A DNA stretch of 64,000 nucleotides from NCBI GenBank assembly GCA_028753945.1, contig JAPNXP010000002.1, positions 15,499,330 to 15,563,329 of the forward strand, written 5' to 3'. The DNA comes from Hexactinellida sp. DTS-2022 (lineage: Eukaryota > Porifera > Hexactinellida). The notes beneath the pieces are model-generated. The model worked only from the letters and a program-made list of their open reading frames with translations. It did no database searches and was not told the DNA's origin. Position 1 is the stretch's first letter. Every line of letters begins with the position of its first letter. This document shows, piece by piece, positions 2,922 to 64,000 of the stretch. Made by a program: the position numbers and the translations under genes.

Positions 2922-7506
<4,585 letters not shown>

Positions 7507-8069: not shown

Positions 8070-8886
8070 AGTTGTAAGTGCCTATATGAGAGAGCAATTT
8101 AATTGGTTGCAACTATTATTATAACAAACAAGTGACAGCGGGAATTCAGTGTGCGAAGTACCTATATATGAGAGAGAGCAATTTAATTGGTTGATACTAT
8201 AGCTATTATAACAAACAAGTGACAGCGGGAATTCAGTGTGCCAGGTACCTATATATGAGAGAGCAATTTAATTGGTCGATACTATAGCTATTATAACAAA
8301 CAAGTGACAGCGGGAATTCAGTGTGCCAGGTACCTATATATGAGAGAGCAATTTAATTGGTTGCAACTATTATTATAACAAACAAGTGACAGCGGGAATT
8401 CAGTGTGCCAGGTACCTATATATGAGAGAGCAATTTAATTGGTCGATACTATAGCTATTATAACAAACAAGTGACAGCGGGAATTCAGTGTGCCAGGTAC
8501 CTATATATGAGAGAGCAATTTAATTGGTTGATACTATAGCTATTATAACAAACAAGTGACAGCGGGAATTCAGTGTGCCAGGTAACTATATATGAGAGAG
8601 CAATTTAATTGGTCGATACTATAGCTATTATAACAAACAAGTGACATTCAGTGTGCCAGGTACCTATATATGAGATAGCAATTTAATTGGTCGATACTAT
8701 AGCTATTATAACAAACAAGTGACAGCGGGAATTCAGTGTGCCAGGTAACTATATATGAGAGAGCAATTTAATTGGTCGATACTATAGCTATTATAACAAA
8801 CAAGTGACATTCAGTGTGCCAGGTACCTATATATGAGATAGCAATTTAATTGGTCGATACTAGCTATTATAACAAACAAGTGACAT
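8070..8886. repeat. 86-bp tandem array copying the 3' end of the bL34 gene
   Basis: About nine units of roughly 79-86 bp (GAGAGCAATTTAATTGGT, ATAACAAACAAGTGACAGCG, ATTCAGTGTGCCAGGTACC). On the minus strand every unit contains GGTACCTGGCACACTGAAT, which is exactly the last codons plus stop codon of the neighbouring bL34 gene (Tyr-Leu-Ala-His-stop). The gene-proximal units share a short variant lacking AGCGGGA, also seen at the gene itself, so the array probably grew by duplicating the gene's 3' end. Confidence 0.93.
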
Positions 8887-9087
8887 TCAGTGTGCCAGGT
8901 ACCAGCGGCCCTTGGCGCGCCTCCGCTCCACAATCCTACGACCCGCTGCGGTTGCCATGCGGGCCGTGTAGCCGTACTTCCGCTTGCGCTGGTAGGTGTT
9001 GGGCTGGTAGTTGTTCCCCCGACAGCTGGCCCGCGCCAGGAGGGGCAGGAACAGGGGGCACCGGGAGAGGAGTAGGCTAAGCGACAT
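8887..9087 (-). CDS. MRPL34: Mitochondrial large-subunit ribosomal protein bL34m
   Basis: This is the nuclear gene for the small basic protein bL34 of the mitochondrial ribosome. It encodes 66 residues in one exon. Residues 1-24 are a hydrophobic, Ser/Leu/Arg-rich presequence ([20 protein letters not shown]) suited to mitochondrial import. The mature part [20 protein letters not shown] ... [18 protein letters not shown] is the diagnostic bL34 block (bacterial relatives have a similar TxQPSxxxRxRxHGFxxR pattern). The start codon lies one base after the stop codon of the last upstream minicistron (9088-9407), and the stop codon lies at the head of the downstream 86-bp array. The transcription start is not evident. 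The family call is firm. Confidence 0.94.
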
Positions 9088-9407
9088 GCTATAAATAGAC
9101 TGGGGACAGTAGGCTAACCGACATGCTATAAATAGACTGGGGACAGTAGGCTAACCGACATGCTATAAATAGACTGGGGACAGTAGGCTAACCGACATGC
9201 TATAAATAGACTGGGGACAGTGGGCTAACCGACATGCTATAAATAGACTGGGGACTGTAGGCTAACCGACATGCTATAAATAGACTGGGGACAGTAGGCT
9301 AACCGACATGCTATAAATAGACTGGGGACAGTGGGCTAACCGACATGCTATAAATAGACTGGGGACAGTAGGCTAACCGACATGCTATAAATAGACTGGG
9401 GACAGTC
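9088..9407 (-). promoter_or_regulatory. 37-bp tandem array forming a chain of upstream minicistrons before bL34m
   Basis: Each 37-bp unit on the minus strand reads ATGTCGGTTAGCCTACTG then TCCCCAGTCTATTTATAGC, encoding an 11-residue peptide ([11 protein letters not shown]) and a TAG stop. The stop is followed by one C and the next ATG. Eight such minicistrons precede the real start codon, which is itself the ninth copy (ATGTCGCTTAGC). Three units show substitutions: CTA to CCA in two and one change in ACTGTCCC. Each unit also contains CTATTTATAG, which fits both a TATA-like and a MEF2-like consensus. If transcribed, the array would be a strong translational brake or a reinitiation leader; if not, it is a repeated promoter element. 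Confidence 0.85.
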
Positions 9408-9472
9408 GAAACCGGGTTTCTAACTGTAGTATCTAAACAGTGTAATAACAACAAATGGGTCACTAAGAAGAG

Positions 9473-9742
9473 CTATAGGGAGGGGTCCGTTAGGAGAGGG
9501 GGCCTGGCGGGGGGCCTGTGGTCGGGTCGGTACCCGGGTCTGTCCCTGATCCTGTGTCCGGGCCCCTCCCAGTTCCGGGGGTACAGGTGGTACTTGGCGG
9601 TCCGGAGGCGCCGCTTGTGGCAGAGGGCCGCCACGTGGCGCTTGAACCTCTCTGTGTACCCGCCCCGGGGGGACAGCTCCGTGAAGAGACGGGATAGGGG
9701 GCCAGGGGGCCGCAGGAGGGCGAGGGCTAGGCGCAGGGACAT
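9473..9742 (-). CDS. Small basic protein, unrecognised (possibly mitochondrial)
   Basis: An intronless 89-codon frame, strongly GC-rich against AT-rich surroundings, as for the real exons here. The N-terminus MSLRLALALLRPPGPLSRLF is hydrophobic and Arg-containing with no acidic residues, like a mitochondrial presequence. The middle is very basic (ERFKRHVAALCHKRRLRTAK) and the end is Pro/Arg-rich (DRPGYRPDHRPPARPP). It sits 386 bp upstream of the bL34 gene on the same strand. The sequence around its start (GCCACATGTCC) is partly repeated just upstream (9765-9791). I do not recognise a family. A divergent mitochondrial ribosomal or respiratory subunit is a guess from composition and context only. 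Coding status rests on base composition. Confidence 0.6.
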   Translation of the reverse strand: MSLRLALALLRPPGPLSRLFTELSPRGGYTERFKRHVAALCHKRRLRTAKYHLYPRNWEGPGHRIRDRPGYRPDHRPPARPPLLTDPSL

Positions 9743-9795
9743 GTGGCTAATTATAGAACTACAGGGTATGTGGCTAATTATAGAACTATAGGAGA

Positions 9796-9963: not shown

Positions 9964-10102
9964 GAAAGTTGACTAATGGACATGTCACATGTGGCTATTT
10001 ATAGAAATATAGTAATGGTAAGTGGAACTATAATGGGACAGTAATTAAGGAAACATGCATTCTGATTGGATAGGATTATGAATATATTACAACAGAGTTC
10101 AG

Positions 10103-38190: not shown

Positions 38191-41121
38191 TCATGACACC
38201 TCCATTGGTTCCTGTTTGGGATCAGCTGTTTCGCCCGCTTCCCCCGAATCCTGGGATTCTATCGGTCCTGTCTCCGCCCCCGCAGTCTAAGGTACATTAG
38301 TGTCAGTTCCGGTATATGCATATATTCACACCTCTATAGAGACAGTACCTGTTTGCTTGTTGTCTCGGGCGCATCAACTTCGGTAGCGACCGATCTAACG
38401 GAAATACAATAAAACAGGAAGTAATTAAAACAGACCCATATCGAATGTATAATTCCCGCGATTGCTATTCGCAGAGAATAGCAGAGAGACAGCCTGTGAT
38501 GTTTTGGAATTGCCGTTTGAGGAACTCTGGTAAAACAGCTGATTTCTTTGAAACATATCTCGACTGAGGCGCCGTAACTAGGAACTACTCTTGGTATCCA
38601 TTTGATACCAAACTAGGCTCCTTTAATTAACAAAATAGAAATTAATTATAAGCTAGTTGCAGACATAGTTCCAATTGGAACTAACTCACGTGTCTGGGGG
38701 TGTGTCCGCTGGCGGGGGGGAGGGCGGGCTCTCCTCTGGGGAGGGTCTCTGTCCCGTCTCCTGTGCGGGGGTCTAAATAGCGCGGGTAAATAACAACAAC
38801 AACAACAACAGGAGTATATTAACACCTCTACATTCCCGTGTCCCGTGTCGGTCTCCATGGAGTCAGCTGGCTGGGCGGGACTGGGGGCCTCGGGAGATCC
38901 GTCCTCCGGCACCTAGCTACAGGGTAGCAACCTTTGTGGGCGAATGGAATGTGTACTCACGGTGTCGTTACCAGACTCGGAGAGGAGTATTTTCAGCTTT
39001 TCCAGTCCCGTTCCCTCCTTGTCCTCCTCGCCCCTACTTCCGGTCTCCATCTGCTCAGCTGTCAGCTGATCCCCCGAGGAACAGGGCCCTATAGCCTCTC
39101 CTATTGTCTGTATAGACTGTATGGGCTGTATGGGCTGTATAGGCATAGTCTCTATAGGGTCAATAGGCTGTATAGGCTGTATAGGCTCTGCTGTAGGACG
39201 GGCTTCCTTGTCGGAGGCGAGAATCGAAGTTGCTTTCCGTTTCTGTTCGGCGGGCGGAACACTAAACACGCGCATTAACTAGCACCTGCATAGACTAATA
39301 GGATAATAGGATGTTACCTTATGTTGGTGCACTCTTCATCCCCGGAGGCGTAGGGGTCGTCCGTCCGGTCGATCAGCTGATCCGCTTCGTCCTGCGTCAT
39401 CCTCACGTCCGGGTCCGTCTAGGGGCGGGGCTAATGTGTCGCCAAGGTGTCACAATATGGAACTAACCTTTGGCGGGAGTATGGTGACGGCGTCGGGGGG
39501 CACAGGCTGCATTTGGACGGACGGAACGAATGTGAGCTCTTTGAGGTTCTTCAGGAGCTGCACCTTAATCTTGTCTAAGTATTCCTTGTTGTTGTGGTTA
39601 ACCATATTACTGGGGGAGATGTGCAGCTTGAAGTCGGGCCCGAAGTACTCGTAGTAATCGTTGTACGGGAGAACTATAAGGACCATGGATACCGGTAGGG
39701 TAGAAAGGTATGGAACTCACTGTTTGATATCTCAGAGTTGAGGGCAAGCGAGGTTTCGTAGGTCCAGCACCTGGCCACATTCCTTATGGTGTACCCCCCG
39801 CCCCCTAGCAACAGGAGAGGCACGTTGTAATGTCGCAGGAATTCCAGGCACTTCCCGTGTCCCTTGAGAGACAAATTGAAGCAACCGAGTCTGTCCCCTG
39901 CCAGGGAATCCGCGCCGCACTGTAGCACCACTGCCCCCGGGTCGTAGGTCTCCATAACCTTAGATATTATCTAGAGAGAGATCAGCTGAGTAGCTATTTA
40001 TAGCAGAGTTCTATTAGAGTTCTATTAATTTGTAATTTGTAATATCATATCCATGGTTTACAACAGCCCACTTACCGGCTCGAATATCTCTCTATAGGAG
40101 GAGTCCTCGATGCCGTCCCTAAGCGGGAAGTTGAGCGCATAGTAGCGTCCCTGGTTCGCGCCCACGTCCTTGAGGTCGCCTGTCCCTGGGAAGTACTCTC
40201 CGTACTTGTGGAACGAGACAGTCATAACTCGGTCGGTTGTGTAGAAAGCCTCCTCCACGCCGTCTCCATGGTGTATGTCGATGTCCACATACAGAACCCG
40301 CTGGTGGTACCTGTTGGATAACTTATAATCACATTCTGTATATCCGTGGTGTGTGTGTACTAACTTGAGCAGCTCTATGATCGCCAGGACGATGTCGTTA
40401 ACGTAGCAGAATCCTGACGCTTCGGATTTCTTGGCGTGGTGCAGTCCGCCCATCCAGTTAATGGCGATGTCCGTGTTGCCCTTGTTCAGCTTAACGGCAG
40501 ACGCTACAGGACCATGGATAAGCAGAGTTATAGAGTCACGCGTTACAAAGCGGAACTAACCGATAGAGCCGGCTGCCGTTATCTGACAGAACTCGAATAG
40601 TCCCTCAAACACGGGGCAATCCTCTCCCACATTAACTAAACACGAATAGAATAATACTGCATATCCATGGTTCCGATACACTACATTCCTGTCTCACTCA
40701 GCTATAAATAGAAGTGCTATAAATAGAACTCACATCTCTGCTTCTGTTTTATGAACTCGTGCATGTTGTCCGGTTTTATATTTCTTAGGAAATTAATGTA
40801 ATCCTCCGAATGGTACCGAATCATCTCGGCTGCCTCGACTCGGTGCGGCCTCTAAACAACAACAACAAGTAAATAACAACAACAACAACAACAGCACTCA
40901 CGTATATTTCCATTTTCCTGTAGAGTCCGTAGTTAAGCAGGAGATTGTGCGCCATTCTGATTCTGTGAGGTTTCATTGGGTGTCCCTGTCCGTAGTAGTA
41001 GTTACCGACATCTCCTAATGAAATGTATAATACAGCTTAAGGTAAACAACAACAACAACAACAACAAACCATCGTAGTAATAACAAACTCTCCGTCTCCC
41101 GCCACTGCTAGAAGTTGTCAT
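38191..41121 (-). CDS. HDAC1: Class I histone deacetylase (HDAC1/2-like) with long C-terminal tail
   Basis: A zinc-dependent lysine deacetylase of Sin3, NuRD and CoREST-type complexes. Fourteen exons (41121-41070, 41014-40902, 40851-40734, 40635-40561, 40503-40365, 40310-40076, 39970-39721, 39673-39468, 39418-39318, 39261-38961, 38912-38826, 38772-38690, 38394-38349, 38286-38191) total 1902 nt and give 633 residues, all phases matching. Catalytic landmarks are intact: [84 protein letters not shown] and [17 protein letters not shown]. The catalytic domain ends around residue 375. The tail is about 150 residues longer than in vertebrate HDAC1 (482) and contains an Ile-Gln-Pro repeat ([20 protein letters not shown]) and acidic Pro/Ser stretches. 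Introns hold three TATCCATGGT/ACCATGGATA words and three CTATAAATAG words. Confidence 0.95.
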
Positions 41122-41290: not shown

Positions 41291-43108
41291 CTATTTGTGT
41301 GTGAACACGCCGGCTATGCCCAGTACGATTAGAATCAGAATAACAAGAGCAACGAACACACTAACGATTACGCATATAACTATAACAGTCAGCTTTCTGG
41401 AGCTTTTCTATTGGAAGAGAGCAACAAATAACAACAGAGTATACTCGTATTATAACAACAGAGTATATTCGTATTATAACAACAGAGTATATTCGTATTA
41501 TAACAACAGAGTATATTCGTATTATAACAACAGAGTATATTCGTATTATAACAACAGAGTATATTCGTATTATAACAACAGAGTATATTCGTATTGTAAC
41601 AACAGAGTATATTCGTATTATAACAACAGAGTATATTCGTATTATAACAACAGAGTATATTCGTATTATAACAACAGAGTATATTCGTATTATAACAACA
41701 GAGTATATTCGTATTATAACACCTCTGTTTACCTGATACTTGTGTGCTTTCACCACTTCGCGCTCCCCCTTGTGTACGGCCAGATTTGCGGTTTCCACAT
41801 GCGCCTCTATATTATCTAAGGAGCGCATTAACGGGATTACAGGGCACATTCCAACCTACCAATCATGTCTCCTTGGTCCTGTATCATAATCCCGATGTCC
41901 CGGAACATGTCGCCGAGTCCGACTATGTCTGTCTACAAACAGAATAACAGCTGTGCGAGAATTGCTATAAATAGAAGAGAATACCTCGATTTGTCGGAGA
42001 GCAGTTTCCCGCTCCTCCAGCTGCGCCAACTGCTCCTGGCCCCGCGCCATCGTCTGCGCCTGCGCCATCCTAACAACAACAACAATAATAACAACAATAG
42101 TAAGTTATCACAACAACAACCATCCTAACAACAACACAATAACAACAACAATAACAACAACAACCCTAACAACACAATAAGAACAACAACAACAATAACA
42201 ACAACAATAATACTACACACAATAACAACAACAACAATAATAAGTTATCACAACAACAATAACAACTAGCTACCTGTCCTGGGGTATTAGCAAATTCTTT
42301 TCGTCGGTTTGGTAACTAGGGGACTCAAACCCGGAGCTTGCCCTTTCTCGGGCGATCGACTCTCTCTCTTTGCGAACTAAAGTCTGAATAACAATAAACA
42401 CAAATGTGCTATAAATAGAGTTCTATAAATAGATACCTCTTGAGCGAGCTTGAATCTTTCAATTATTTCTTTGAAGTTCTTCTTTATTCTGTCCAGCTGC
42501 ATCTTACGAGTCTAATAACAAAATAAACAACAACAACAACAACAAATAAGTTGGTATTTACCCTATCGCCGGATTGTCTGACTTGATTCTCGAACTTTTC
42601 CAGATCATCCCTGGTCATTTTGAGGAGAGAGGTTGTATCCTCTTTCAAATAGGAACTATAAACAACAACAACAACAACAACAATATAAGAATAAGAATAG
42701 TTCTATAATTAGAACAGTTCTACCAAACACAACTCACAGTTCCGATCTAATCCTGCTAGCGTCAGCTGTTCCCAACCGCTTTATCATCCTCTCCATTTCG
42801 GCAACTACACAAGTAAATAAACAAACAAACAAACAAATAAGTAAGTAAACAAACACCCAAACGAACGAACAAACAAACACACACACTAACAAACAAACAA
42901 ACAAACATTAAACAAACAAACATTAAACAAACAAACAAACAAACAAACAAATAGACAAACAAACAAACAAACAGACAAACAGACAAACACAATAACAAAC
43001 AAACAAACAAACAAACAAACACATAAACAAACAAACAAACAACAAACCATTGCGTGTGATGTGCTGTATGTTCTGAGACAGGAGATTTGCTAGTCTGTCT
43101 GTATCCAT
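41291..43108 (-). CDS. STX7/12-like: Syntaxin-7/12-like Qa-SNARE
   Basis: A SNARE for endosomal membrane fusion. Nine exons (43108-43048, 42804-42738, 42655-42562, 42511-42437, 42383-42274, 42069-41985, 41932-41860, 41815-41733, 41407-41291) total 765 nt and give 254 residues in continuous frame. The N-terminal part is an Habc-like helical region (MDTDRLANLLSQNIQHITRN, VAEMERMIKRLGTADASR, TRKMQLDRIKKNFKEIIERF). The SNARE motif runs through QLAQLEERETALRQIETDIV, LGDMFRDIGIMIQDQGDMID and NIEAHVETANLAVHKGEREV, with the central glutamine present (IQDQGD). A tail anchor (VIVICVIVSVFVALVILILI) precedes a short lumenal end (VFTHK). The sequence fits the Syntaxin 7/12 group better than plasma-membrane syntaxin 1. 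Intron 8 carries a 24-bp minisatellite. Confidence 0.93.
41415..41726. repeat. 24-bp minisatellite in Syntaxin intron 8
   Basis: Thirteen near-identical units of ATAACAACAGAGTATATTCG then TATT, with single changes in the first (ATACTCG) and in one internal unit (GTAACAAC). It fills almost the whole intron before the tail-anchor exon. Confidence 0.96.
42070..42262. repeat. (AAC)n microsatellite in Syntaxin intron 5
   Basis: AACAACAAT/AATAAC units in several blocks. Confidence 0.9.
42808..43045. repeat. (AAAC)n microsatellite in Syntaxin intron 1
   Basis: AAAC units with AGAC, GAAC and ATTAAAC interruptions fill the intron. Confidence 0.93.
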
Positions 43109-46010: not shown

Positions 46011-46020
46011 ACTTAAGTCT

Positions 46021-47165
46021 TGACACAAGATAACTCAGAAGTCACTTTGAATGGCGAGAGGTTTCACTAGGACCAAACATTCACACTTTAATTGCAGTGG
46101 ATTTAACCCCGATACATACTAGAAAGTTAGTAAAAGTGATGATTTCTAGTATATCCGATGAACCCTTTATAAGACGATTTTGTTACTCTAAAAAATGCAT
46201 GACGACCCGAAACAAGTTCCTTTTCACGGGACACAATATAACTGACATTAAAAAAAGATAGTTTTCACAAGGCAACCCTTCCAACACAATTCAAATAGCA
46301 CTTCTTTACACCGAAAACTCTCATTATATTCCATTAAAAACATAGATTTTAAATTTCAGCAAATGGACCAGTTAGAAGACGATTTGGTGACTAAAAATAA
46401 TAGTCCAGATTTAGAAAAGGCTATTCTAGACACCAGTTAACCCAGGAGTCACTTAACTATGCGAGTGGTTTACTGGGAGCCATACATTCACACTTTAATT
46501 GCACTTATTTTAACCTTGATCCATACTAGAAAATTAGCAACAGTGATGTTTTTACTATATCCAATGAACCCTTCATAAGATAATTTTGTTACTATAAAAA
46601 AGACAAAACGAACCGGAAAGAGTTCATTTTCACGACGCTGCATAGAACTGACATTGAATAGAGACAGTTTTCACAAGGCAACCGTTCAAAGTCAATACAA
46701 ATAGCAGTCACTGCTTTACCCCGGAAACTCGCATTAGAATACATTAAATACATAGATTTTAAATTTAAGCAAATGGACCAGTTAGAAGACGCTTTGGTGA
46801 TCATAAAAAATTGTCTCGATTTAGAATTGGCTATTCTTGACACTGGAATACACCAAAGTCACTTAACTATGCGAGTGGTTTACTAGGAGCCATACATTCA
46901 CACTTTAATTGCACTTATTTTAACCTTGATCCATACTAGAAAATTAGCAACAGTGATGATTTTAACTACATCCAATGAACCCTTCATAAGACAATTTTGT
47001 TACTATAAAAAAGACATGACGAACCGGAAAGAGTTCATTTTCACGAGGCTGCATAGAACTGACATTGAATAGAGACAGTTTTCACAAGGCAACCGTTCAA
47101 AGTCAATACAAATGGCAGTCACTGCTTTACCCCGGAAACTCGCATTAGAATCCATTAAAAACATA
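46021..47165. repeat. Three decayed copies of a repeat of about 410 bp
   Basis: GTCACTT followed by ATGCGAGTGG-type sequence recurs at 46041, 46448 and 46858 (spacing 407 and 410). Each copy continues through ACATTCACACTTTAATTGCA, AACCCTTCATAAGACAATTT and AAGGCAACCGTTCAAAGTCA to AAATGGACCAGTTAGAAGAC. Copies 2 and 3 are closer to each other than to copy 1. The third breaks into the satellite at about 47166. Confidence 0.88.
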
Positions 47166-50100
47166 GATTCTTTCACTCCCTTCGTTCCCAGCCAATTTTT
47201 AACCAACAAAAAATAGATTTTAAGAATGCTATAAAAGTCCATTTGGAAGGTGACTGTTTGACAATAAACAATCCAGGTCACTTTAAAAAGAGATTTACTT
47301 TTCACCAGACATCCCAAACATCACATAGGATAGCCATCCTTTACAATATATTCCATCAAGACAATTAAATAGAAGAATTCTTTCACTCTCCTTCGTTCCC
47401 AGCCAATTTTTAACCAACCAAAGATAGATTTTAAGAATGCTATAAAAGTCCATTTGGAAGGTGACTGTTTGACAATAAACAATCCAGGTCACTTTAAAAA
47501 GAGATTTACTTTTCACCAGACATCCCAAACATCACATAGGATAGCCATCCTTTACAATATATTCCATCAAGACAATTAAATAGAAGAATTCTTTCACTCT
47601 CCTTCGTTCCCAGCCAATTTTTAACCAACCAAAGATAGATTTTAAGAATGCTATAAAAGTCCATTTGGAAGGTGACTGTTTGACAATAAACAATCCAGGT
47701 CACTTTAAAAAGAGATTTACTTTTCACCAGACATCCCAAACATCACATAAAGATAGCCAGTCCTTTCACTATACCCCATCAAACACAATTAAGAAGAAGA
47801 ATTCTATCACTCCCTTCGTTCCCAGCCAATTTTTAACCAACCAAAGATAGATTTTAAGAATGCTATAAAAGTCCATTTGGAAGGTGACTGTTTGACAATA
47901 AACAATCCAGGTCACTTTAAAAAGAGATTTACTTTTCACCAGACATCCCAAACATCACATAAAGATAGCCAGTCCTTTCACTATACCCCATCAAACACAA
48001 TTAAGAAGAAGAATTCTATCACTCCCTTCGTTCCCAGCCAATTTTTAACCAACCAAAGATAGATTTTAAGAATGCTATAAAAGTCCATTTGGAAGGTGAC
48101 TGTTTGACAATAAACAATCCAGGTCACTTTAAAAAGAGATTTACTTTTCACCAGACATCCCAAACATCACATAGGATAGCCATCCTTTACAATATATTCC
48201 ATCAAGACAATTAAATAGAAGAATTCTTTCACTCTCCTTCGTTCCCAGCCAATTTTTAACCAACCAAAGATAGATTTTAAGAATGCTATAAAAGTCCATT
48301 TGGAAGGTGACTGTTTGACAATAAACAATCCAGGTCACTTTAAAAAGAGATTTACTTTTCACCAGACATCCCAAACATCACATAGGATAGCCATCCTTTA
48401 CAATATATTCCATCAAGACAATTAAATAGAAGAATTCTTTCACTCTCCTTCGTTCCCAGCCAATTTTTAACCAACCAAAGATAGATTTTAAGAATGCTAT
48501 AAAAGTCCATTTGGAAGGTGACTGTTTGACAATAAACAATCCAGGTCACTTTAAAAAGAGATTTACTTTTCACCAGACATCCCAAACATCACATAGGATA
48601 GCCATCCTTTACAATATATTCCATCAAGACAATTAAATAGAAGAATTCTTTCACTCTCCTTCGTTCCCAGCCAATTTTTAACCAACCAAAGATAGATTTT
48701 AAGAATGCTATAAAAGTCCATTTGGAAGGTGACTGTTTGACAATAAACAATCCAGGTCACTTTAAAAAGAGATTTACTTTTCACCAGACATCCCAAACAT
48801 CACATAGGATAGCCATCCTTTACAATATATTCCATCAAGACAATTAAATAGAAGAATTCTTTCACTCTCCTTCGTTCCCAGCCAATTTTTAACCAACCAA
48901 AGATAGATTTTAAGAATGCTATAAAAGTCCATTTGGAAGGTGACTGTTTGACAATAAACAATCCAGGTCACTTTAAAAAGAGATTTACTTTTCACCAGAC
49001 ATCCCAAACATCACATAGGATAGCCATCCTTTACAATATATTCCATCAAGACAATTAAATAGAAGAATTCTTTCACTCTCCTTCGTTCCCAGCCAATTTT
49101 TAACCAACCAATGATAGATTTTAAGAATGCTATAAAAGTCCATTTGGAAGGTGACTGTTTGACAATAAACAATCCAGGTCACTTTAAAAAGAGATTTACT
49201 TTTCACCAGACATCCCAAACATCACATAGGATAGCCATCCTTTACAATATATTCCATCAAGACAATTAAATAGAAGAATTCTTTCACTCTCCTTCGTTCC
49301 CAGCCAATTTTTAACCAACCAAAGATAGATTTTAAGAATGCTATAAAAGTCCATTTGGAAGGTGACTGTTTGACAATAAACAATCCAGGTCACTTTAAAA
49401 AGAGATTTACTTTTCACCAGACATCCCAAACATCACATAGGATAGCCATCCTTTACAATATATTCCATCAAGACAATTAAATAGAAGAATTCTTTCACTC
49501 TCCTTCGTTCCCAGCCAATTTTTAACCAACCAAAGATAGATTTTAAGAATGCTATAAAAGTCCATTTGGAAGGTGACTGTTTGACAATAAACAATCCAGG
49601 TCACTTTAAAAAGAGATTTACTTTTCACCAGACATCCCAAACATCACATAAAGATAGCCAGTCCTTTCACTATACCCCATCAAACACAATTAAGAAGAAG
49701 AATTCTATCACTCCCTTCGTTCCCAGCCAATTTTTAACCAACCAAAGATAGATTTTAAGAATGCTATAAAAGTCCATTTGGAAGGTGACTGTTTGACAAT
49801 AAACAATCCAGGTCACTTTAAAAAGAGATTTACTTTTCACCAGACATCCCAAACATCACATAAAGATAGCCAGTCCTTTCACTATACCCCATCAAACACA
49901 ATTAAGAAGAAGAATTCTATCACTCCCTTCGTTCCCAGCCAATTTTTAACCAACCAAAGATAGATTTTAAGAATGCTATAAAAGTCCATTTGGAAGGTGA
50001 CTGTTTGACAATAAACAATCCAGGTCACTTTAAAAAGAGATTTACTTTTCACCAGACATCCCAAACATCACATAGGATAGCCATCCTTTACAATATATTC

Positions 50101-53100
50101 CATCAAGACAATTAAATAGAAGAATTCTTTCACTCTCCTTCGTTCCCAGCCAATTTTTAACCAACCAAAGATAGATTTTAAGAATGCTATAAAAGTCCAT
50201 TTGGAAGGTGACTGTTTGACAATAAACAATCCAGGTCACTTTAAAAAGAGATTTACTTTTCACCAGACATCCCAAACATCACATAAAGATAGCCAGTCCT
50301 TTCACTATACCCCATCAAACACAATTAAGAAGAAGAATTCTATCACTCCCTTCGTTCCCAGCCAATTTTTAACCAACCAAAGATAGATTTTAAGAATGCT
50401 ATAAAAGTCCATTTGGAAGGTGACTGTTTGACAATAAACAATCCAGGTCACTTTAAAAAGAGATTTACTTTTCACCAGACATCCCAAACATCACATAGGA
50501 TAGCCATCCTTTACAATATATTCCATCAAGACAATTAAATAGAAGAATTCTTTCACTCTCCTTCGTTCCCAGCCAATTTTTAACCAACCAAAGATAGATT
50601 TTAAGAATGCTATAAAAGTCCATTTGGAAGGTGACTGTTTGACAATAAACAATCCAGGTCACTTTAAAAAGAGATTTACTTTTCACCAGACATCCCAAAC
50701 ATCACATAGGATAGCCATCCTTTACAATATATTCCATCAAGACAATTAAATAGAAGAATTCTTTCACTCTCCTTCGTTCCCAGCCAATTTTTAACCAACC
50801 AAAGATAGATTTTAAGAATGCTATAAAAGTCCATTTGGAAGGTGACTGTTTGACAATAAACAATCCAGGTCACTTTAAAAAGAGATTTACTTTTCACCAG
50901 ACATCCCAAACATCACATAGGATAGCCATCCTTTACAATATATTCCATCAAGACAATTAAATAGAAGAATTCTTTCACTCTCCTTCGTTCCCAGCCAATT
51001 TTTAACCAACCAAAGATAGATTTTAAGAATGCTATAAAAGTCCATTTGGAAGGTGACTGTTTGACAATAAACAATCCAGGTCACTTTAAAAAGAGATTTA
51101 CTTTTCACCAGACATCCCAAACATCACATAGGATAGCCATCCTTTACAATATATTCCATCAAGACAATTAAATAGAAGAATTCTTTCACTCTCCTTCGTT
51201 CCCAGCCAATTTTTAACCAACCAAAGATAGATTTTAAGAATGCTATAAAAGTCCATTTGGAAGGTGACTGTTTGACAATAAACAATCCAGGTCACTTTAA
51301 AAAGAGATTTACTTTTCACCAGACATCCCAAACATCACATAGGATAGCCATCCTTTACAATATATTCCATCAAGACAATTAAATAGAAGAATTCTTTCAC
51401 TCTCCTTCGTTCCCAGCCAATTTTTAACCAACCAAAGATAGATTTTAAGAATGCTATAAAAGTCCATTTGGAAGGTGACTGTTTGACAATAAACAATCCA
51501 GGTCACTTTAAAAAGAGATTTACTTTTCACCAGACATCCCAAACATCACATAGGATAGCCATCCTTTACAATATATTCCATCAAGACAATTAAATAGAAG
51601 AATTCTTTCACTCTCCTTCGTTCCCAGCCAATTTTTAACCAACCAAAGATAGATTTTAAGAATGCTATAAAAGTCCATTTGGAAGGTGACTGTTTGACAA
51701 TAAACAATCCAGGTCACTTTAAAAAGAGATTTACTTTTCACCAGACATCCCAAACATCACATAGGATAGCCATCCTTTACAATATATTCCATCAAGACAA
51801 TTAAATAGAAGAATTCTTTCACTCTCCTTCGTTCCCAGCCAATTTTTAACCAACCAAAGATAGATTTTAAGAATGCTATAAAAGTCCATTTGGAAGGTGA
51901 CTGTTTGACAATAAACAATCCAGGTCACTTTAAAAAGAGATTTACTTTTCACCAGACATCCCAAACATCACATAGGATAGCCATCCTTTACAATATATTC
52001 CATCAAGACAATTAAATAGAAGAATTCTTTCACTCTCCTTCGTTCCCAGCCAATTTTTAACCAACCAATGATAGATTTTAAGAATGCTATAAAAGTCCAT
52101 TTGGAAGGTGACTGTTTGACAATAAACAATCCAGGTCACTTTAAAAAGAGATTTACTTTTCACCAGACATCCCAAACATCACATAGGATAGCCATCCTTT
52201 ACAATATATTCCATCAAGACAATTAAATAGAAGAATTCTTTCACTCTCCTTCGTTCCCAGCCAATTTTTAACCAACCAATGATAGATTTTAAGAATGCTA
52301 TAAAAGTCCATTTGGAAGGTGACTGTTTGACAATAAACAATCCAGGTCACTTTAAAAAGAGATTTACTTTTCACCAGACATCCCAAACATCACATAAAGA
52401 TAGCCAGTCCTTTCACTATACCCCATCAAACACAATTAAGAAGAAGAATTCTATCACTCCCTTCGTTCCCAGCCAATTTTTAACCAACCAAAGATAGATT
52501 TTAAGAATGCTATAAAAGTCCATTTGGAAGGTGACTGTTTGACAATAAACAATCCAGGTCACTTTAAAAAGAGATTTACTTTTCACCAGACATCCCAAAC
52601 ATCACATAGGATAGCCATCCTTTACAATATATTCCATCAAGACAATTAAATAGAAGAATTCTTTCACTCTCCTTCGTTCCCAGCCAATTTTTAACCAACC
52701 AAAGATAGATTTTAAGAATGCTATAAAAGTCCATTTGGAAGGTGACTGTTTGACAATAAACAATCCAGGTCACTTTAAAAAGAGATTTACTTTTCACCAG
52801 ACATCCCAAACATCACATAGGATAGCCATCCTTTACAATATATTCCATCAAGACAATTAAATAGAAGAATTCTTTCACTCTCCTTCGTTCCCAGCCAATT
52901 TTTAACCAACCAAAGATAGATTTTAAGAATGCTATAAAAGTCCATTTGGAAGGTGACTGTTTGACAATAAACAATCCAGGTCACTTTAAAAAGAGATTTA
53001 CTTTTCACCAGACATCCCAAACATCACATAAAGATAGCCAGTCCTTTCACTATACCCCATCAAACACAATTAAGAAGAAGAATTCTATCACTCCCTTCGT

Positions 53101-56100
53101 TCCCAGCCAATTTTTAACCAACCAAAGATAGATTTTAAGAATGCTATAAAAGTCCATTTGGAAGGTGACTGTTTGACAATAAACAATCCAGGTCACTTTA
53201 AAAAGAGATTTACTTTTCACCAGACATCCCAAACATCACATAGGATAGCCATCCTTTACAATATATTCCATCAAGACAATTAAATAGAAGAATTCTTTCA
53301 CTCTCCTTCGTTCCCAGCCAATTTTTAACCAACCAAAGATAGATTTTAAGAATGCTATAAAAGTCCATTTGGAAGGTGACTGTTTGACAATAAACAATCC
53401 AGGTCACTTTAAAAAGAGATTTACTTTTCACCAGACATCCCAAACATCACATAGGATAGCCATCCTTTACAATATATTCCATCAAGACAATTAAATAGAA
53501 GAATTCTTTCACTCTCCTTCGTTCCCAGCCAATTTTTAACCAACCAAAGATAGATTTTAAGAATGCTATAAAAGTCCATTTGGAAGGTGACTGTTTGACA
53601 ATAAACAATCCAGGTCACTTTAAAAAGAGATTTACTTTTCACCAGACATCCCAAACATCACATAGGATAGCCATCCTTTACAATATATTCCATCAAGACA
53701 ATTAAATAGAAGAATTCTTTCACTCTCCTTCGTTCCCAGCCAATTTTTAACCAACCAAAGATAGATTTTAAGAATGCTATAAAAGTCCATTTGGAAGGTG
53801 ACTGTTTGACAATAAACAATCCAGGTCACTTTAAAAAGAGATTTACTTTTCACCAGACATCCCAAACATCACATAAAGATAGCCAGTCCTTTCACTATAC
53901 CCCATCAAACACAATTAAGAAGAAGAATTCTATCACTCCCTTCGTTCCCAGCCAATTTTTAACCAACCAAAGATAGATTTTAAGAATGCTATAAAAGTCC
54001 ATTTGGAAGGTGACTGTTTGACAATAAACAATCCAGGTCACTTTAAAAAGAGATTTACTTTTCACCAGACATCCCAAACATCACATAGGATAGCCATCCT
54101 TTACAATATATTCCATCAAGACAATTAAATAGAAGAATTCTTTCACTCTCCTTCGTTCCCAGCCAATTTTTAACCAACCAAAGATAGATTTTAAGAATGC
54201 TATAAAAGTCCATTTGGAAGGTGACTGTTTGACAATAAACAATCCAGGTCACTTTAAAAAGAGATTTACTTTTCACCAGACATCCCAAACATCACATAGG
54301 ATAGCCATCCTTTACAATATATTCCATCAAGACAATTAAATAGAAGAATTCTTTCACTCTCCTTCGTTCCCAGCCAATTTTTAACCAACCAAAGATAGAT
54401 TTTAAGAATGCTATAAAAGTCCATTTGGAAGGTGACTGTTTGACAATAAACAATCCAGGTCACTTTAAAAAGAGATTTACTTTTCACCAGACATCCCAAA
54501 CATCACATAGGATAGCCATCCTTTACAATATATTCCATCAAGACAATTAAATAGAAGAATTCTTTCACTCTCCTTCGTTCCCAGCCAATTTTTAACCAAC
54601 CAAAGATAGATTTTAAGAATGCTATAAAAGTCCATTTGGAAGGTGACTGTTTGACAATAAACAATCCAGGTCACTTTAAAAAGAGATTTACTTTTCACCA
54701 GACATCCCAAACATCACATAAAGATAGCCAGTCCTTTCACTATACCCCATCAAACACAATTAAGAAGAAGAATTCTATCACTCCCTTCGTTCCCAGCCAA
54801 TTTTTAACCAACCAAAGATAGATTTTAAGAATGCTATAAAAGTCCATTTGGAAGGTGACTGTTTGACAATAAACAATCCAGGTCACTTTAAAAAGAGATT
54901 TACTTTTCACCAGACATCCCAAACATCACATAGGATAGCCATCCTTTACAATATATTCCATCAAGACAATTAAATAGAAGAATTCTTTCACTCTCCTTCG
55001 TTCCCAGCCAATTTTTAACCAACCAAAGATAGATTTTAAGAATGCTATAAAAGTCCATTTGGAAGGTGACTGTTTGACAATAAACAATCCAGGTCACTTT
55101 AAAAAGAGATTTACTTTTCACCAGACATCCCAAACATCACATAGGATAGCCATCCTTTACAATATATTCCATCAAGACAATTAAATAGAAGAATTCTTTC
55201 ACTCTCCTTCGTTCCCAGCCAATTTTTAACCAACCAAAGATAGATTTTAAGAATGCTATAAAAGTCCATTTGGAAGGTGACTGTTTGACAATAAACAATC
55301 CAGGTCACTTTAAAAAGAGATTTACTTTTCACCAGACATCCCAAACATCACATAAAGATAGCCAGTCCTTTCACTATACCCCATCAAACACAATTAAGAA
55401 GAAGAATTCTATCACTCCCTTCGTTCCCAGCCAATTTTTAACCAACCAAAGATAGATTTTAAGAATGCTATAAAAGTCCATTTGGAAGGTGACTGTTTGA
55501 CAATAAACAATCCAGGTCACTTTAAAAAGAGATTTACTTTTCACCAGACATCCCAAACATCACATAGGATAGCCATCCTTTACAATATATTCCATCAAGA
55601 CAATTAAATAGAAGAATTCTTTCACTCTCCTTCGTTCCCAGCCAATTTTTAACCAACCAAAGATAGATTTTAAGAATGCTATAAAAGTCCATTTGGAAGG
55701 TGACTGTTTGACAATAAACAATCCAGGTCACTTTAAAAAGAGATTTACTTTTCACCAGACATCCCAAACATCACATAGGATAGCCATCCTTTACAATATA
55801 TTCCATCAAGACAATTAAATAGAAGAATTCTTTCACTCTCCTTCGTTCCCAGCCAATTTTTAACCAACCAAAGATAGATTTTAAGAATTCTATAAAAGTC
55901 CATTTGGAAGGTGACTGTTTGACAATAAACAATCCAGGTCACTTTAAAAAGAGATTTACTTTTCACCAGACATCCCAAACATCACATAGGATAGCCATCC
56001 TTTACAATATATTCCATCAAGACAATTAAATAGAAGAATTCTTTCACTCTCCTTCGTTCCCAGCCAATTTTTAACCAACCAAAGATAGATTTTAAGAATG

Positions 56101-59100
56101 CTATAAAAGTCCATTTGGAAGGTGACTGTTTGACAATAAACAATCCAGGTCACTTTAAAAAGAGATTTACTTTTCACCAGACATCCCAAACATCACATAG
56201 GATAGCCATCCTTTACAATATATTCCATCAAGACAATTAAATAGAAGAATTCTTTCACTCTCCTTCGTTCCCAGCCAATTTTTAACCAACCAAAGATAGA
56301 TTTTAAGAATGCTATAAAAGTCCATTTGGAAGGTGACTGTTTGACAATAAACAATCCAGGTCACTTTAAAAAGAGATTTACTTTTCACCAGACATCCCAA
56401 ACATCACATAGGATAGCCATCCTTTACAATATATTCCATCAAGACAATTAAATAGAAGAATTCTTTCACTCTCCTTCGTTCCCAGCCAATTTTTAACCAA
56501 CCAAAGATAGATTTTAAGAATGCTATAAAAGTCCATTTGGAAGGTGACTGTTTGACAATAAACAATCCAGGTCACTTTAAAAAGAGATTTACTTTTCACC
56601 AGACATCCCAAACATCACATAGGATAGCCATCCTTTACAATATATTCCATCAAGACAATTAAATAGAAGAATTCTTTCACTCTCCTTCGTTCCCAGCCAA
56701 TTTTTAACCAACCAAAGATAGATTTTAAGAATGCTATAAAAGTCCATTTGGAAGGTGACTGTTTGACAATAAACAATCCAGGTCACTTTAAAAAGAGATT
56801 TACTTTTCACCAGACATCCCAAACATCACATAGGATAGCCATCCTTTACAATATATTCCATCAAGACAATTAAATAGAAGAATTCTTTCACTCTCCTTCG
56901 TTCCCAGCCAATTTTTAACCAACCAAAGATAGATTTTAAGAATGCTATAAAAGTCCATTTGGAAGGTGACTGTTTGACAATAAACAATCCAGGTCACTTT
57001 AAAAAGAGATTTACTTTTCACCAGACATCCCAAACATCACATAGGATAGCCATCCTTTACAATATATTCCATCAAGACAATTAAATAGAAGAATTCTTTC
57101 ACTCTCCTTCGTTCCCAGCCAATTTTTAACCAACCAAAGATAGATTTTAAGAATGCTATAAAAGTCCATTTGGAAGGTGACTGTTTGACAATAAACAATC
57201 CAGGTCACTTTAAAAAGAGATTTACTTTTCACCAGACATCCCAAACATCACATAAAGATAGCCAGTCCTTTCACTATACCCCATCAAACACAATTAAGAA
57301 GAAGAATTCTATCACTCCCTTCGTTCCCAGCCAATTTTTAACCAACCAAAGATAGATTTTAAGAATGCTATAAAAGTCCATTTGGAAGGTGACTGTTTGA
57401 CAATAAACAATCCAGGTCACTTTAAAAAGAGATTTACTTTTCACCAGACATCCCAAACATCACATAGGATAGCCATCCTTTACAATATATTCCATCAAGA
57501 CAATTAAATAGAAGAATTCTTTCACTCTCCTTCGTTCCCAGCCAATTTTTAACCAACCAAAGATAGATTTTAAGAATGCTATAAAAGTCCATTTGGAAGG
57601 TGACTGTTTGACAATAAACAATCCAGGTCACTTTAAAAAGAGATTTACTTTTCACCAGACATCCCAAACATCACATAGGATAGCCATCCTTTACAATATA
57701 TTCCATCAAGACAATTAAATAGAAGAATTCTTTCACTCTCCTTCGTTCCCAGCCAATTTTTAACCAACCAAAGATAGATTTTAAGAATGCTATAAAAGTC
57801 CATTTGGAAGGTGACTGTTTGACAATAAACAATCCAGGTCACTTTAAAAAGAGATTTACTTTTCACCAGACATCCCAAACATCACATAGGATAGCCATCC
57901 TTTACAATATATTCCATCAAGACAATTAAATAGAAGAATTCTTTCACTCTCCTTCGTTCCCAGCCAATTTTTAACCAACCAAAGATAGATTTTAAGAATG
58001 CTATAAAAGTCCATTTGGAAGGTGACTGTTTGACAATAAACAATCCAGGTCACTTTAAAAAGAGATTTACTTTTCACCAGACATCCCAAACATCACATAG
58101 GATAGCCATCCTTTACAATATATTCCATCAAGACAATTAAATAGAAGAATTCTTTCACTCTCCTTCGTTCCCAGCCAATTTTTAACCAACCAAAGATAGA
58201 TTTTAAGAATGCTATAAAAGTCCATTTGGAAGGTGACTGTTTGACAATAAACAATCCAGGTCACTTTAAAAAGAGATTTACTTTTCACCAGACATCCCAA
58301 ACATCACATAGGATAGCCATCCTTTACAATATATTCCATCAAGACAATTAAATAGAAGAATTCTTTCACTCTCCTTCGTTCCCAGCCAATTTTTAACCAA
58401 CCAAAGATAGATTTTAAGAATGCTATAAAAGTCCATTTGGAAGGTGACTGTTTGACAATAAACAATCCAGGTCACTTTAAAAAGAGATTTACTTTTCACC
58501 AGACATCCCAAACATCACATAGGATAGCCATCCTTTACAATATATTCCATCAAGACAATTAAATAGAAGAATTCTTTCACTCTCCTTCGTTCCCAGCCAA
58601 TTTTTAACCAACCAAAGATAGATTTTAAGAATGCTATAAAAGTCCATTTGGAAGGTGACTGTTTGACAATAAACAATCCAGGTCACTTTAAAAAGAGATT
58701 TACTTTTCACCAGACATCCCAAACATCACATAAAGATAGCCAGTCCTTTCACTATACCCCATCAAACACAATTAAGAAGAAGAATTCTATCACTCCCTTC
58801 GTTCCCAGCCAATTTTTAACCAACCAAAGATAGATTTTAAGAATGCTATAAAAGTCCATTTGGAAGGTGACTGTTTGACAATAAACAATCCAGGTCACTT
58901 TAAAAAGAGATTTACTTTTCACCAGACATCCCAAACATCACATAAAGATAGCCAGTCCTTTCACTATACCCCATCAAACACAATTAAGAAGAAGAATTCT
59001 ATCACTCCCTTCGTTCCCAGCCAATTTTTAACCAACCAAAGATAGATTTTAAGAATGCTATAAAAGTCCATTTGGAAGGTGACTGTTTGACAATAAACAA

Positions 59101-62100
59101 TCCAGGTCACTTTAAAAAGAGATTTACTTTTCACCAGACATCCCAAACATCACATAGGATAGCCATCCTTTACAATATATTCCATCAAGACAATTAAATA
59201 GAAGAATTCTTTCACTCTCCTTCGTTCCCAGCCAATTTTTAACCAACCAAAGATAGATTTTAAGAATGCTATAAAAGTCCATTTGGAAGGTGACTGTTTG
59301 ACAATAAACAATCCAGGTCACTTTAAAAAGAGATTTACTTTTCACCAGACATCCCAAACATCACATAGGATAGCCATCCTTTACAATATATTCCATCAAG
59401 ACAATTAAATAGAAGAATTCTTTCACTCTCCTTCGTTCCCAGCCAATTTTTAACCAACCAAAGATAGATTTTAAGAATGCTATAAAAGTCCATTTGGAAG
59501 GTGACTGTTTGACAATAAACAATCCAGGTCACTTTAAAAAGAGATTTACTTTTCACCAGACATCCCAAACATCACATAGGATAGCCATCCTTTACAATAT
59601 ATTCCATCAAGACAATTAAATAGAAGAATTCTTTCACTCTCCTTCGTTCCCAGCCAATTTTTAACCAACCAAAGATAGATTTTAAGAATGCTATAAAAGT
59701 CCATTTGGAAGGTGACTGTTTGACAATAAACAATCCAGGTCACTTTAAAAAGAGATTTACTTTTCACCAGACATCCCAAACATCACATAGGATAGCCATC
59801 CTTTACAATATATTCCATCAAGACAATTAAATAGAAGAATTCTTTCACTCTCCTTCGTTCCCAGCCAATTTTTAACCAACCAAAGATAGATTTTAAGAAT
59901 GCTATAAAAGTCCATTTGGAAGGTGACTGTTTGACAATAAACAATCCAGGTCACTTTAAAAAGAGATTTACTTTTCACCAGACATCCCAAACATCACATA
60001 GGATAGCCATCCTTTACAATATATTCCATCAAGACAATTAAATAGAAGAATTCTTTCACTCTCCTTCGTTCCCAGCCAATTTTTAACCAACCAAAGATAG
60101 ATTTTAAGAATGCTATAAAAGTCCATTTGGAAGGTGACTGTTTGACAATAAACAATCCAGGTCACTTTAAAAAGAGATTTACTTTTCACCAGACATCCCA
60201 AACATCACATAGGATAGCCATCCTTTACAATATATTCCATCAAGACAATTAAATAGAAGAATTCTTTCACTCTCCTTCGTTCCCAGCCAATTTTTAACCA
60301 ACCAAAGATAGATTTTAAGAATGCTATAAAAGTCCATTTGGAAGGTGACTGTTTGACAATAAACAATCCAGGTCACTTTAAAAAGAGATTTACTTTTCAC
60401 CAGACATCCCAAACATCACATAGGATAGCCATCCTTTACAATATATTCCATCAAGACAATTAAATAGAAGAATTCTTTCACTCTCCTTCGTTCCCAGCCA
60501 ATTTTTAACCAACCAAAGATAGATTTTAAGAATGCTATAAAAGTCCATTTGGAAGGTGACTGTTTGACAATAAACAATCCAGGTCACTTTAAAAAGAGAT
60601 TTACTTTTCACCAGACATCCCAAACATCACATAGGATAGCCATCCTTTACAATATATTCCATCAAGACAATTAAATAGAAGAATTCTTTCACTCTCCTTC
60701 GTTCCCAGCCAATTTTTAACCAACCAAAGATAGATTTTAAGAATGCTATAAAAGTCCATTTGGAAGGTGACTGTTTGACAATAAACAATCCAGGTCACTT
60801 TAAAAAGAGATTTACTTTTCACCAGACATCCCAAACATCACATAGGATAGCCATCCTTTACAATATATTCCATCAAGACAATTAAATAGAAGAATTCTTT
60901 CACTCTCCTTCGTTCCCAGCCAATTTTTAACCAACCAAAGATAGATTTTAAGAATGCTATAAAAGTCCATTTGGAAGGTGACTGTTTGACAATAAACAAT
61001 CCAGGTCACTTTAAAAAGAGATTTACTTTTCACCAGACATCCCAAACATCACATAGGATAGCCATCCTTTACAATATATTCCATCAAGACAATTAAATAG
61101 AAGAATTCTTTCACTCTCCTTCGTTCCCAGCCAATTTTTAACCAACCAAAGATAGATTTTAAGAATGCTATAAAAGTCCATTTGGAAGGTGACTGTTTGA
61201 CAATAAACAATCCAGGTCACTTTAAAAAGAGATTTACTTTTCACCAGACATCCCAAACATCACATAGGATAGCCATCCTTTACAATATATTCCATCAAGA
61301 CAATTAAATAGAAGAATTCTTTCACTCTCCTTCGTTCCCAGCCAATTTTTAACCAACCAAAGATAGATTTTAAGAATGCTATAAAAGTCCATTTGGAAGG
61401 TGACTGTTTGACAATAAACAATCCAGGTCACTTTAAAAAGAGATTTACTTTTCACCAGACATCCCAAACATCACATAGGATAGCCATCCTTTACAATATA
61501 TTCCATCAAGACAATTAAATAGAAGAATTCTTTCACTCTCCTTCGTTCCCAGCCAATTTTTAACCAACCAAAGATAGATTTTAAGAATGCTATAAAAGTC
61601 CATTTGGAAGGTGACTGTTTGACAATAAACAATCCAGGTCACTTTAAAAAGAGATTTACTTTTCACCAGACATCCCAAACATCACATAAAGATAGCCAGT
61701 CCTTTCACTATACCCCATCAAACACAATTAAGAAGAAGAATTCTATCACTCCCTTCGTTCCCAGCCAATTTTTAACCAACCAAAGATAGATTTTAAGAAT
61801 GCTATAAAAGTCCATTTGGAAGGTGACTGTTTGACAATAAACAATCCAGGTCACTTTAAAAAGAGATTTACTTTTCACCAGACATCCCAAACATCACATA
61901 AAGATAGCCAGTCCTTTCACTATACCCCATCAAACACAATTAAGAAGAAGAATTCTATCACTCCCTTCGTTCCCAGCCAATTTTTAACCAACCAAAGATA
62001 GATTTTAAGAATGCTATAAAAGTCCATTTGGAAGGTGACTGTTTGACAATAAACAATCCAGGTCACTTTAAAAAGAGATTTACTTTTCACCAGACATCCC

Positions 62101-64000
62101 AAACATCACATAGGATAGCCATCCTTTACAATATATTCCATCAAGACAATTAAATAGAAGAATTCTTTCACTCTCCTTCGTTCCCAGCCAATTTTTAACC
62201 AACCAAAGATAGATTTTAAGAATGCTATAAAAGTCCATTTGGAAGGTGACTGTTTGACAATAAACAATCCAGGTCACTTTAAAAAGAGATTTACTTTTCA
62301 CCAGACATCCCAAACATCACATAGGATAGCCATCCTTTACAATATATTCCATCAAGACAATTAAATAGAAGAATTCTTTCACTCTCCTTCGTTCCCAGCC
62401 AATTTTTAACCAACCAAAGATAGATTTTAAGAATGCTATAAAAGTCCATTTGGAAGGTGACTGTTTGACAATAAACAATCCAGGTCACTTTAAAAAGAGA
62501 TTTACTTTTCACCAGACATCCCAAACATCACATAGGATAGCCATCCTTTACAATATATTCCATCAAGACAATTAAATAGAAGAATTCTTTCACTCTCCTT
62601 CGTTCCCAGCCAATTTTTAACCAACCAAAGATAGATTTTAAGAATGCTATAAAAGTCCATTTGGAAGGTGACTGTTTGACAATAAACAATCCAGGTCACT
62701 TTAAAAAGAGATTTACTTTTCACCAGACATCCCAAACATCACATAGGATAGCCATCCTTTACAATATATTCCATCAAGACAATTAAATAGAAGAATTCTT
62801 TCACTCTCCTTCGTTCCCAGCCAATTTTTAACCAACCAAAGATAGATTTTAAGAATGCTATAAAAGTCCATTTGGAAGGTGACTGTTTGACAATAAACAA
62901 TCCAGGTCACTTTAAAAAGAGATTTACTTTTCACCAGACATCCCAAACATCACATAGGATAGCCATCCTTTACAATATATTCCATCAAGACAATTAAATA
63001 GAAGAATTCTTTCACTCTCCTTCGTTCCCAGCCAATTTTTAACCAACCAAAGATAGATTTTAAGAATGCTATAAAAGTCCATTTGGAAGGTGACTGTTTG
63101 ACAATAAACAATCCAGGTCACTTTAAAAAGAGATTTACTTTTCACCAGACATCCCAAACATCACATAGGATAGCCATCCTTTACAATATATTCCATCAAG
63201 ACAATTAAATAGAAGAATTCTTTCACTCTCCTTCGTTCCCAGCCAATTTTTAACCAACCAATGATAGATTTTAAGAATGCTATAAAAGTCCATTTGGAAG
63301 GTGACTGTTTGACAATAAACAATCCAGGTCACTTTAAAAAGAGATTTACTTTTCACCAGACATCCCAAACATCACATAGGATAGCCATCCTTTACAATAT
63401 ATTCCATCAAGACAATTAAATAGAAGAATTCTTTCACTCTCCTTCGTTCCCAGCCAATTTTTAACCAACCAAAGATAGATTTTAAGAATGCTATAAAAGT
63501 CCATTTGGAAGGTGACTGTTTGACAATAAACAATCCAGGTCACTTTAAAAAGAGATTTACTTTTCACCAGACATCCCAAACATCACATAGGATAGCCAGT
63601 CCTTTACAATATATTCCATCAAGACAATTAAATAGAAGAATTCTTTCACTCTCCTTCGTTCCCAGCCAATTTTTAACCAACCAAAGATAGATTTTAAGAA
63701 TGCTATAAAAGTCCATTTGGAAGGTGACTGTTTGACAATAAACAATCCAGGTCACTTTAAAAAGAGATTTACTTTTCACCAGACATCCCAAACATCACAT
63801 AAAGATAGCCAGTCCTTTCACTATACCCCATCAAACACAATTAAGAAGAAGAATTCTATCACTCCCTTCGTTCCCAGCCAATTTTTAACCAACCAAAGAT
63901 AGATTTTAAGAATGCTATAAAAGTCCATTTGGAAGGTGACTGTTTGACAATAAACAATCCAGGTCACTTTAAAAAGAGATTTACTTTTCACCAGACATCC
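47166..64000. repeat. 211/212-bp satellite array, about 80 monomers, runs off the window
   Basis: Head-to-tail monomers share a constant part (CCAGCCAATTTTTAACCAAC, TTTTAAGAATGCTATAAAAG, GGAAGGTGACTGTTTGACAA, TCCAGGTCACTTTAAAAAG) and one variable segment of about 70 bp. Type A (211 bp) has ATAGGATAGCCATCCTTTAC and TCTTTCACTCTCC. Type B (212 bp) has ATAAAGATAGCCAGTCC and TCTATCACTCCC. I count 16 type-B monomers, near 47.7, 47.9, 49.6, 49.9, 50.3, 52.4, 53.0, 53.9, 54.7, 55.4, 57.2, 58.7, 58.9, 61.7, 61.9 and 63.8 kb. A hybrid A/B unit is at about 63.59 kb. Otherwise only rare single-base variants occur (CAATGATAG near 49111, 52069, 52280 and 63261; GAATTC for GAATGC near 55889). Since 211 is not a multiple of three, its repeated open frames are not coding. 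Confidence 0.97.

Follow-up and report, generated by a model that had tools for sequence, protein, structure and literature searches.

Organisation of the bL34m locus

The stretch of DNA analysed here (the window, 64,000 nucleotides) covers the final 64 kb of a chromosome, the genome comprising 18 contigs and 112.4 Mb. A minus-strand coding sequence of 66 aa plus stop (8887..9087, start codon 9087-9085) was identified as bL34m by its match to the Pfam family Ribosomal_L34 (PF00468, E 1.5e-18) and, among bL34m structures, to yeast bL34m (E 1.7e-12); it represents the single match in the 112.4-Mb genome. Its first 24 residues, judged by eye, resemble an N-terminal mitochondrial presequence and may be considered a putative one. 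The gene sits between two tandem arrays, of which the downstream one, directly adjacent, is formed by 9.7 copies of an 85-bp repeat (8083-8885).

On the upstream side, inspection of the sequence confirmed a minus-strand tandem array leading into the bL34m start at 9087. Eight complete 37-bp units (9088..9383) have their ATGs at 9383, 9346, 9309, 9272, 9235, 9198, 9161 and 9124, and each is composed of an ATG and ten further codons (11 codons), a TAG and a single C, directly followed by the ATG of the next unit. The peptide encoded by each unit is MSVS(L/P)(L/Q)SPVYL-TAG, with one substitution in each of three of the eight units (L5P twice, L6Q once); all eight minicistron frames are intact and all ATGs have an A at -3 (context TATAGCATGT). 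TRF reported a period of 37, 9.1 copies and 97% matches (9071-9406), as in a minisatellite made of head-to-tail copies of a 10-100 bp unit. A leading partial unit of 23 nt (9384..9406, minus strand) is probably the original upstream flank, while the first 17 nt of the coding sequence (9071..9087, minus strand) are the gene's own partial copy, identical to the unit at 16 of 17 nt, with G/C in the third codon as the sole mismatch. This identity bears out the proposal of an earlier note that the unit was taken from the gene's own start, and the sequence agrees with its description of 11-residue frames ending in TAG, one C and the next ATG, with the ATG of the gene as the last link. The span it gave (9088..9407) contains the array as described and stops one base short of the ninth ATG (9087-9085); the seven restarts it counted must be corrected to eight for passage of the full chain.

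The 37-bp unit was found at one place only in a search of the 112.4-Mb genome that scores the best candidates and skips very common words, and exact-string searches agree. The last unit contains the element CTATTTATAG (9089..9098, minus strand), one nucleotide before the true ATG, which we propose as a 3' splice acceptor (TAG/C, the slash marking the junction) or 5'-end element; eight further copies follow on the same strand in 37-bp steps, up to 9394.

A unique spacer of 66 bp (9407..9472) separates the array from the stop of an upstream ORF and contains, just upstream of the array, the interrupted palindrome GAAACCGGGTTTC (GAAAC-CGG-GTTTC, 9408-9420), a candidate protein-binding site. The ORF is on the same strand and encodes 89 aa (9473..9742, minus strand), with no family found. 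A 27-bp duplication (9743..9785, minus strand) containing two copies of TTCTATAATTAGC extends to its ATG, the upstream copy having ATA instead of ATG. The likeness between the starts of this ORF and of bL34m was weak, its score being reached by 5 of 500 shuffles, and was not used. An orphan start module, TCTATAAATAGCCACATG, was also detected on the minus strand (9990-10005), its ATG being immediately followed by TGA.

Origin of the array

We infer that the array is a recent minisatellite expansion, by slippage, of the 5'-end module of the gene, which would span the element (TCTATTTATAG/C) and the beginning of the coding sequence, from the ATG through the first codons. The 5' partial unit starts with ACT and the gene's copy ends with CTACT, edges that would derive from a single-copy ancestor with ACT flanking one module, slippage between these short repeats being the likely origin of the duplication. 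Units sharing one substitution sit three units apart (9346, 9235), as block duplication predicts. The stop-start spacing is unusual for a random unit: of the shuffled 37-mers that contain a single ATG, 33% have an ORF that is closed ahead of the following ATG, and in 2.8% the stop comes 0-3 nt ahead of it. Such close spacing would result if a TAG-C-ATG start, without an earlier in-frame stop, were copied with a period of 1 modulo 3, and the uORF chain looks like a by-product of the copied module.

The element at other start codons

TAG-C-ATG is the end of a CTA(W)4TAG-C element that is placed also before other start codons. A genome search with TCTATNNNTAGCN{0,3}ATGTC gave 15 matches at seven places, namely the array, its neighbour and five others; three of the five precede IF1, COX6B-family and PTH2 proteins, and the remaining two precede ORFs of 10 and 59 codons with no evident gene. 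The wider pattern TCTATWWWTAGCN{0,8}ATG gave 100 matches in the genome, compared with 31 for the reversed pattern; these include nine in the array, 18 in a dispersed repeat (dropped), one at the neighbour ORF and one at the orphan module of the window. Outside the array 53 sites were read, 20 further sites falling outside this count. Nine of the 13 sites with a TAAT core, one of these nine (L083) being low-complexity, and 6 of the 40 with other cores were followed by an ORF of 80 codons or more, or by one still open where the sequence read ended. The link between element and gene is strong for the TAAT core and weak for the other cores, including the TTTA core of bL34m itself.

For TTCTATAATTAGC followed by an ATG within 30 nt, 18 matches (16 sites) were obtained versus three for the reversed pattern. 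The ATG was at most 5 nt away at 11 of the 16 sites (null 24%, assuming an ATG chance of 0.018 per base; p 2e-4), and 15 of the 16 were located within 440 kb of a chromosome end, a zone making up 14% of the genome; both the 5-nt and the 440-kb limits were chosen after the data were seen.

Pfam matches above cut-off were found for 6 of the 17 proteins scanned after the element (IATP, COX6B, PTH2, USP8_dimer, PH, HlyIII). A mitochondrial regulon had been prompted by the first matches beside bL34m, IF1, the COX6B-family protein and PTH2, which we take to have mitochondrial roles; since the wider set has USP8_dimer, PH, HlyIII/PAQR-type and other proteins, the element is not specific to mitochondrial genes and this reading was rejected. 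CTA(W)4TAG fits the MEF2 consensus as well, but a MEF2-type site leaves the element at intron ends (see below) unexplained and was discarded. As an orientation control the mirrored element pattern was swamped by a satellite on C2, with 1054 matches versus 33 in its own control, and is not usable. This satellite lies outside the window (C2:6197354-6215154) and its copies, among the matches listed, carry GCTATAAATAGAAAGGACAAATG every ~154 bp or multiples thereof.

Tandem copies of the element recur in the genome. Same-strand pairs within 30 nt were found at 37 places, none being found with the reversed pattern, and form 20 clusters, one of which is CT-rich simple sequence. Eighteen of the 20 are within 440 kb of a chromosome end (a limit chosen afterwards). 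Among these clusters, one pair precedes a PH-domain ORF, an HDAC intron contains a 15-bp pair (40702-40727), and the start of the neighbour has the 27-bp duplication. Of the clusters listed, the bL34m array shows the highest copy number. A further pair lies near 42.4 kb of the window (42409-42433). In the first 46 kb of the window CTA(W)4TAG occurs at 34 sites, nine of them in the array, versus ~2 in shuffles, and in a 200-kb sample at 30 sites versus ~11.

The element as a probable 3' splice site

Protein alignment indicates that the element serves as a 3' splice site in this genome, namely in two introns of the nearby ERM gene. In the first, CTATAAATAG (5708..5717, minus strand) precedes an exon starting with CACAACCTGACG; in the next, CTATTTATAG (5124..5133, minus strand) precedes an exon starting with ACTGACGCC. 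The junctions obtained by tblastn mapping read GTTCTATAAATAG/CACAACCTG and TCCTATTTATAG/A CTGACG, respectively. The mapping of two conserved genes of the window gave ~11 introns, with nine acceptors placed by eye; seven of the nine end in TAG. Against the splice reading, only two of the nine end in the element, and HDAC intron 3 has two element copies away from its end.

A change in base composition points in the same direction as the ERM introns. In the first 46 kb of the window, with the array counted by its last copy only, GC content increases after the TAG/C of the element at 13 of 18 sites (p 0.018), and the rise exceeds that after all 396 TAGC (p 0.0035). No rise was observed at element sites where TAG is followed by a base other than C (up at 13 of 33, p 0.074). 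The shift is reduced to 10 of 15 (p 0.088) when bL34m and its neighbour are left out, which counts against the splice reading.

A third indication comes from gene starts, of which 20 were picked from 84 matches (10 actin, 10 others) and read together with three from the window. Of the 13 non-actin starts, 10 have a YAG no more than 15 nt from the ATG, compared with 4.5 expected (p 0.0014); when four actin representatives are included, the count is 11 of 17 (p 0.0036). The 15-nt limit was chosen after seeing the data; limits of 5, 8 and 10 nt give 6, 7 and 8 of 13 (p 0.006, 0.013 and 0.004). On the contrary, 8 of the 17 starts also have a YAG at 16-31 nt upstream, the two intervals beyond having one in 4 of 17 each, and only five of the ten actin copies have a YAG near the ATG. 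Overall, the element, GC and YAG observations fit a candidate splice acceptor placed directly before the start codon.

The start motif TGTTGCTAGC, common to ERM and HDAC, was tried as a general start signal and rejected, being little enriched (85 matches versus 47 in the control). Actin-like matches in the genome exceed 30, many of them in long open frames, and CTAGCCACAATG is common to five of the ten actin starts read (L092-L101).

Where the 5' end of the bL34m mRNA is probably made

Since this genome uses the element as a 3' splice acceptor, the 5' end of the bL34m mRNA is likely to be made by splicing. In our preferred reading, to which we assign a probability of about one half, a leader is joined to the acceptor of the last module and the minicistrons are mostly excluded from the message. 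The acceptor would lie one nucleotide before the true ATG, leaving all eight minicistrons in the removed RNA, and most productive mRNAs would gain their 5' end, through splicing or transcription start, at the last module, 1-14 nt upstream of the true ATG. As the candidate 5'-end site of each unit is just before its ATG, an mRNA made at the last unit would therefore have no uORF. Frequent use of the last unit is to be expected, since the gene appears functional and no second copy is in view. An mRNA beginning within the last unit, named in the earlier note as the observation fatal to its own model, appears likely on the evidence of the DNA. Conversely, use of an upstream acceptor would give an mRNA starting with 1-8 minicistrons and little bL34m; the extra modules would act at most as decoys.

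The leader, itself presumed, could come from spliced-leader trans-splicing or from a 5'-UTR exon. Reports of spliced leaders exist for the glass sponge A. vastus, where PMC10282587 gives a predicted leader on 4% of long reads, and for the ctenophore Hormiphora, for which PMC8527503 gives 56%. That the present genome belongs to a sponge or a ctenophore is a guess, prompted by its size, its chromosome number, its intronless genes and a Wnt search that gave no match, although none of the 14 controls of that search gave one either. The low figure in A. vastus counts against a spliced leader at bL34m.

A more ambitious form of the preferred reading is unlikely as a whole. According to it, nine modules of acceptor and start codon would compete for the 5' end of the mRNA, with only the last yielding protein and the acceptor TAG doubling as the stop of each decoy; copy number, driven by slippage, would set the productive fraction of this nuclear-encoded mRNA, and the same amplification near chromosome ends would amount to an evolvable expression dial.

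Alternative readings

Tandem core promoters are an unlikely rival. In this model each ATG would have a transcription start ~14 nt upstream; mRNAs begun in the last unit would be uORF-free and those begun earlier uORF-bearing. Each unit contains a TATTTATA box, and the unit after it has an initiator-like CCAGTCT 33 nt downstream of that box, a spacing that follows from the 37-bp period; the position of the element 0-8 nt before other ATGs is also in accordance with this model. Mammalian TISU, as presented in PMC2518114, is an ATG-embedding element acting in transcription and in translation from very short leaders (median 12 nt). In the Amphimedon promoter survey of PMC4773876, a TATA box was present in 26% of promoters, its frequency peaking ~30 bp ahead of the start site; a YY1/Kozak motif was most prevalent ~10 bp after that site, but the same account reports Inr as not enriched. 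Tandem promoters moreover leave the element at intron 3' ends unexplained. A simpler version, with the element as the TATA box of the gene itself, was rejected: located 0-8 nt from the ATG of other genes, it cannot be their TATA box, a point that also counts against the tandem promoters.

That the array is a neutral minisatellite, always removed or untranscribed and with a copy number without effect on expression, seems improbable. The abundance of similar repeats agrees with it: 20 tandem arrays (periods of 15-150, 3.5 or more copies and 80% or more matches) were found in 246 kb, ten of them in the first 46 kb of the window, tandem element copies recur at 20 places, and three of the eight units have a changed residue. 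However, this array abuts a start codon and duplicates apparently functional 5'-end signals, for which reason some decoy effect would be expected.

The least probable reading is the one put forward in the earlier note, of a single mRNA with all eight minicistrons, from which bL34m would be translated by repeated termination-reinitiation or by leaky scanning, copy number acting as a translational rheostat. The intact frames and the A at -3 are compatible with it, and the RNA folds somewhat better than shuffles (z -2.3). Reinitiation dependent on DENR-MCT-1 is described in the review PMC5972666 as independent of the distance between uORF and CDS, but in human cells these factors aided, according to the same review, reinitiation on minimal start-stop uORFs only, and DENR-dependent reinitiation is likelier for uORFs farther from the CDS (PMC6547434). 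Reinitiation after short uORFs generally needs intercistronic distance, as stated in PMC5972666, and the spacer here is 1 nt. Arithmetically, a 50% passage per step would leave 0.4% after eight steps, and bL34m has one match in the genome, with no other copy seen to supply the protein. TAG-C-ATG is accounted for by the shared element, and the TAG need not be there as a stop, since the element occurs before other ATGs and at intron 3' ends. Enforced termination-reinitiation is unsupported, the shared element explaining TAG-C-ATG and 1-nt spacers being expected to reinitiate poorly.

Relation to known systems

Our literature search on uORFs, tandem repeats and reinitiation found no reiterated start-derived uORF chain among the papers listed. 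The nearest analogues found are mlo-11 (self-derived 5' array), TISU (element fixed at the ATG) and the acceptors of Trypanosoma brucei (acceptor choice), and none of the three combines all features of the bL34m array.

Barley mlo-11, as described in PMC4941727, consists of tandem repeats of the 5' portion of the gene itself, followed by an intact copy, and the bL34m array (16/17 nt) has the same arrangement. In the same description mlo-11 copy number (2 versus 11-12) tracks expression, each unit comprises five exons as well as regulatory sequence, and the mechanisms proposed are read-through or methylation; the bL34m unit, in contrast, measures 37 bp, carries a single start codon together with a putative splice acceptor, and is known here from DNA alone. 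TISU is likewise fixed at the start codon and has a very short leader, a feature we presume for bL34m. It has AAS before and GCGGC after the ATG (PMC2518114), whereas the bL34m unit reads AGC-ATG-TCGGTT, with AGC before and TCGGT after, and does not belong to this class; nor is TISU presented as a tandem array in the description given by PMC2518114. In T. brucei the choice among alternative spliced-leader acceptors decides, according to PMC2916883, whether a uORF is present in the mRNA. The candidate acceptors of bL34m differ in being near-identical tandem copies derived from the gene's start, and trans-splicing is only proposed for them. GCN4-type control also involves several short uORFs before one coding sequence, but relies, in the account of PMC5972666, on an intercistronic distance long enough to reacquire initiator tRNA, whereas the bL34m uORFs are near-identical and 1 nt apart, too close for that rule.

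If the preferred reading is true, the start of a gene has given rise to a repeat that creates competing 5'-end sites, and slippage alone could tune expression with the protein untouched. It would also mean that uORF chains can arise as by-products of an architecture with the splice acceptor at the ATG, a warning not to interpret these chains as translational machinery when only the DNA is at hand. The common element offers a handle on how messages gain their 5' ends in this lineage.

Distal to the genes of the window, a 410-bp repeat of 2.8 copies (46018-47169) lies between them and a 211-bp satellite (47167-64000), whose ~80 copies at 98% fill the chromosome end.
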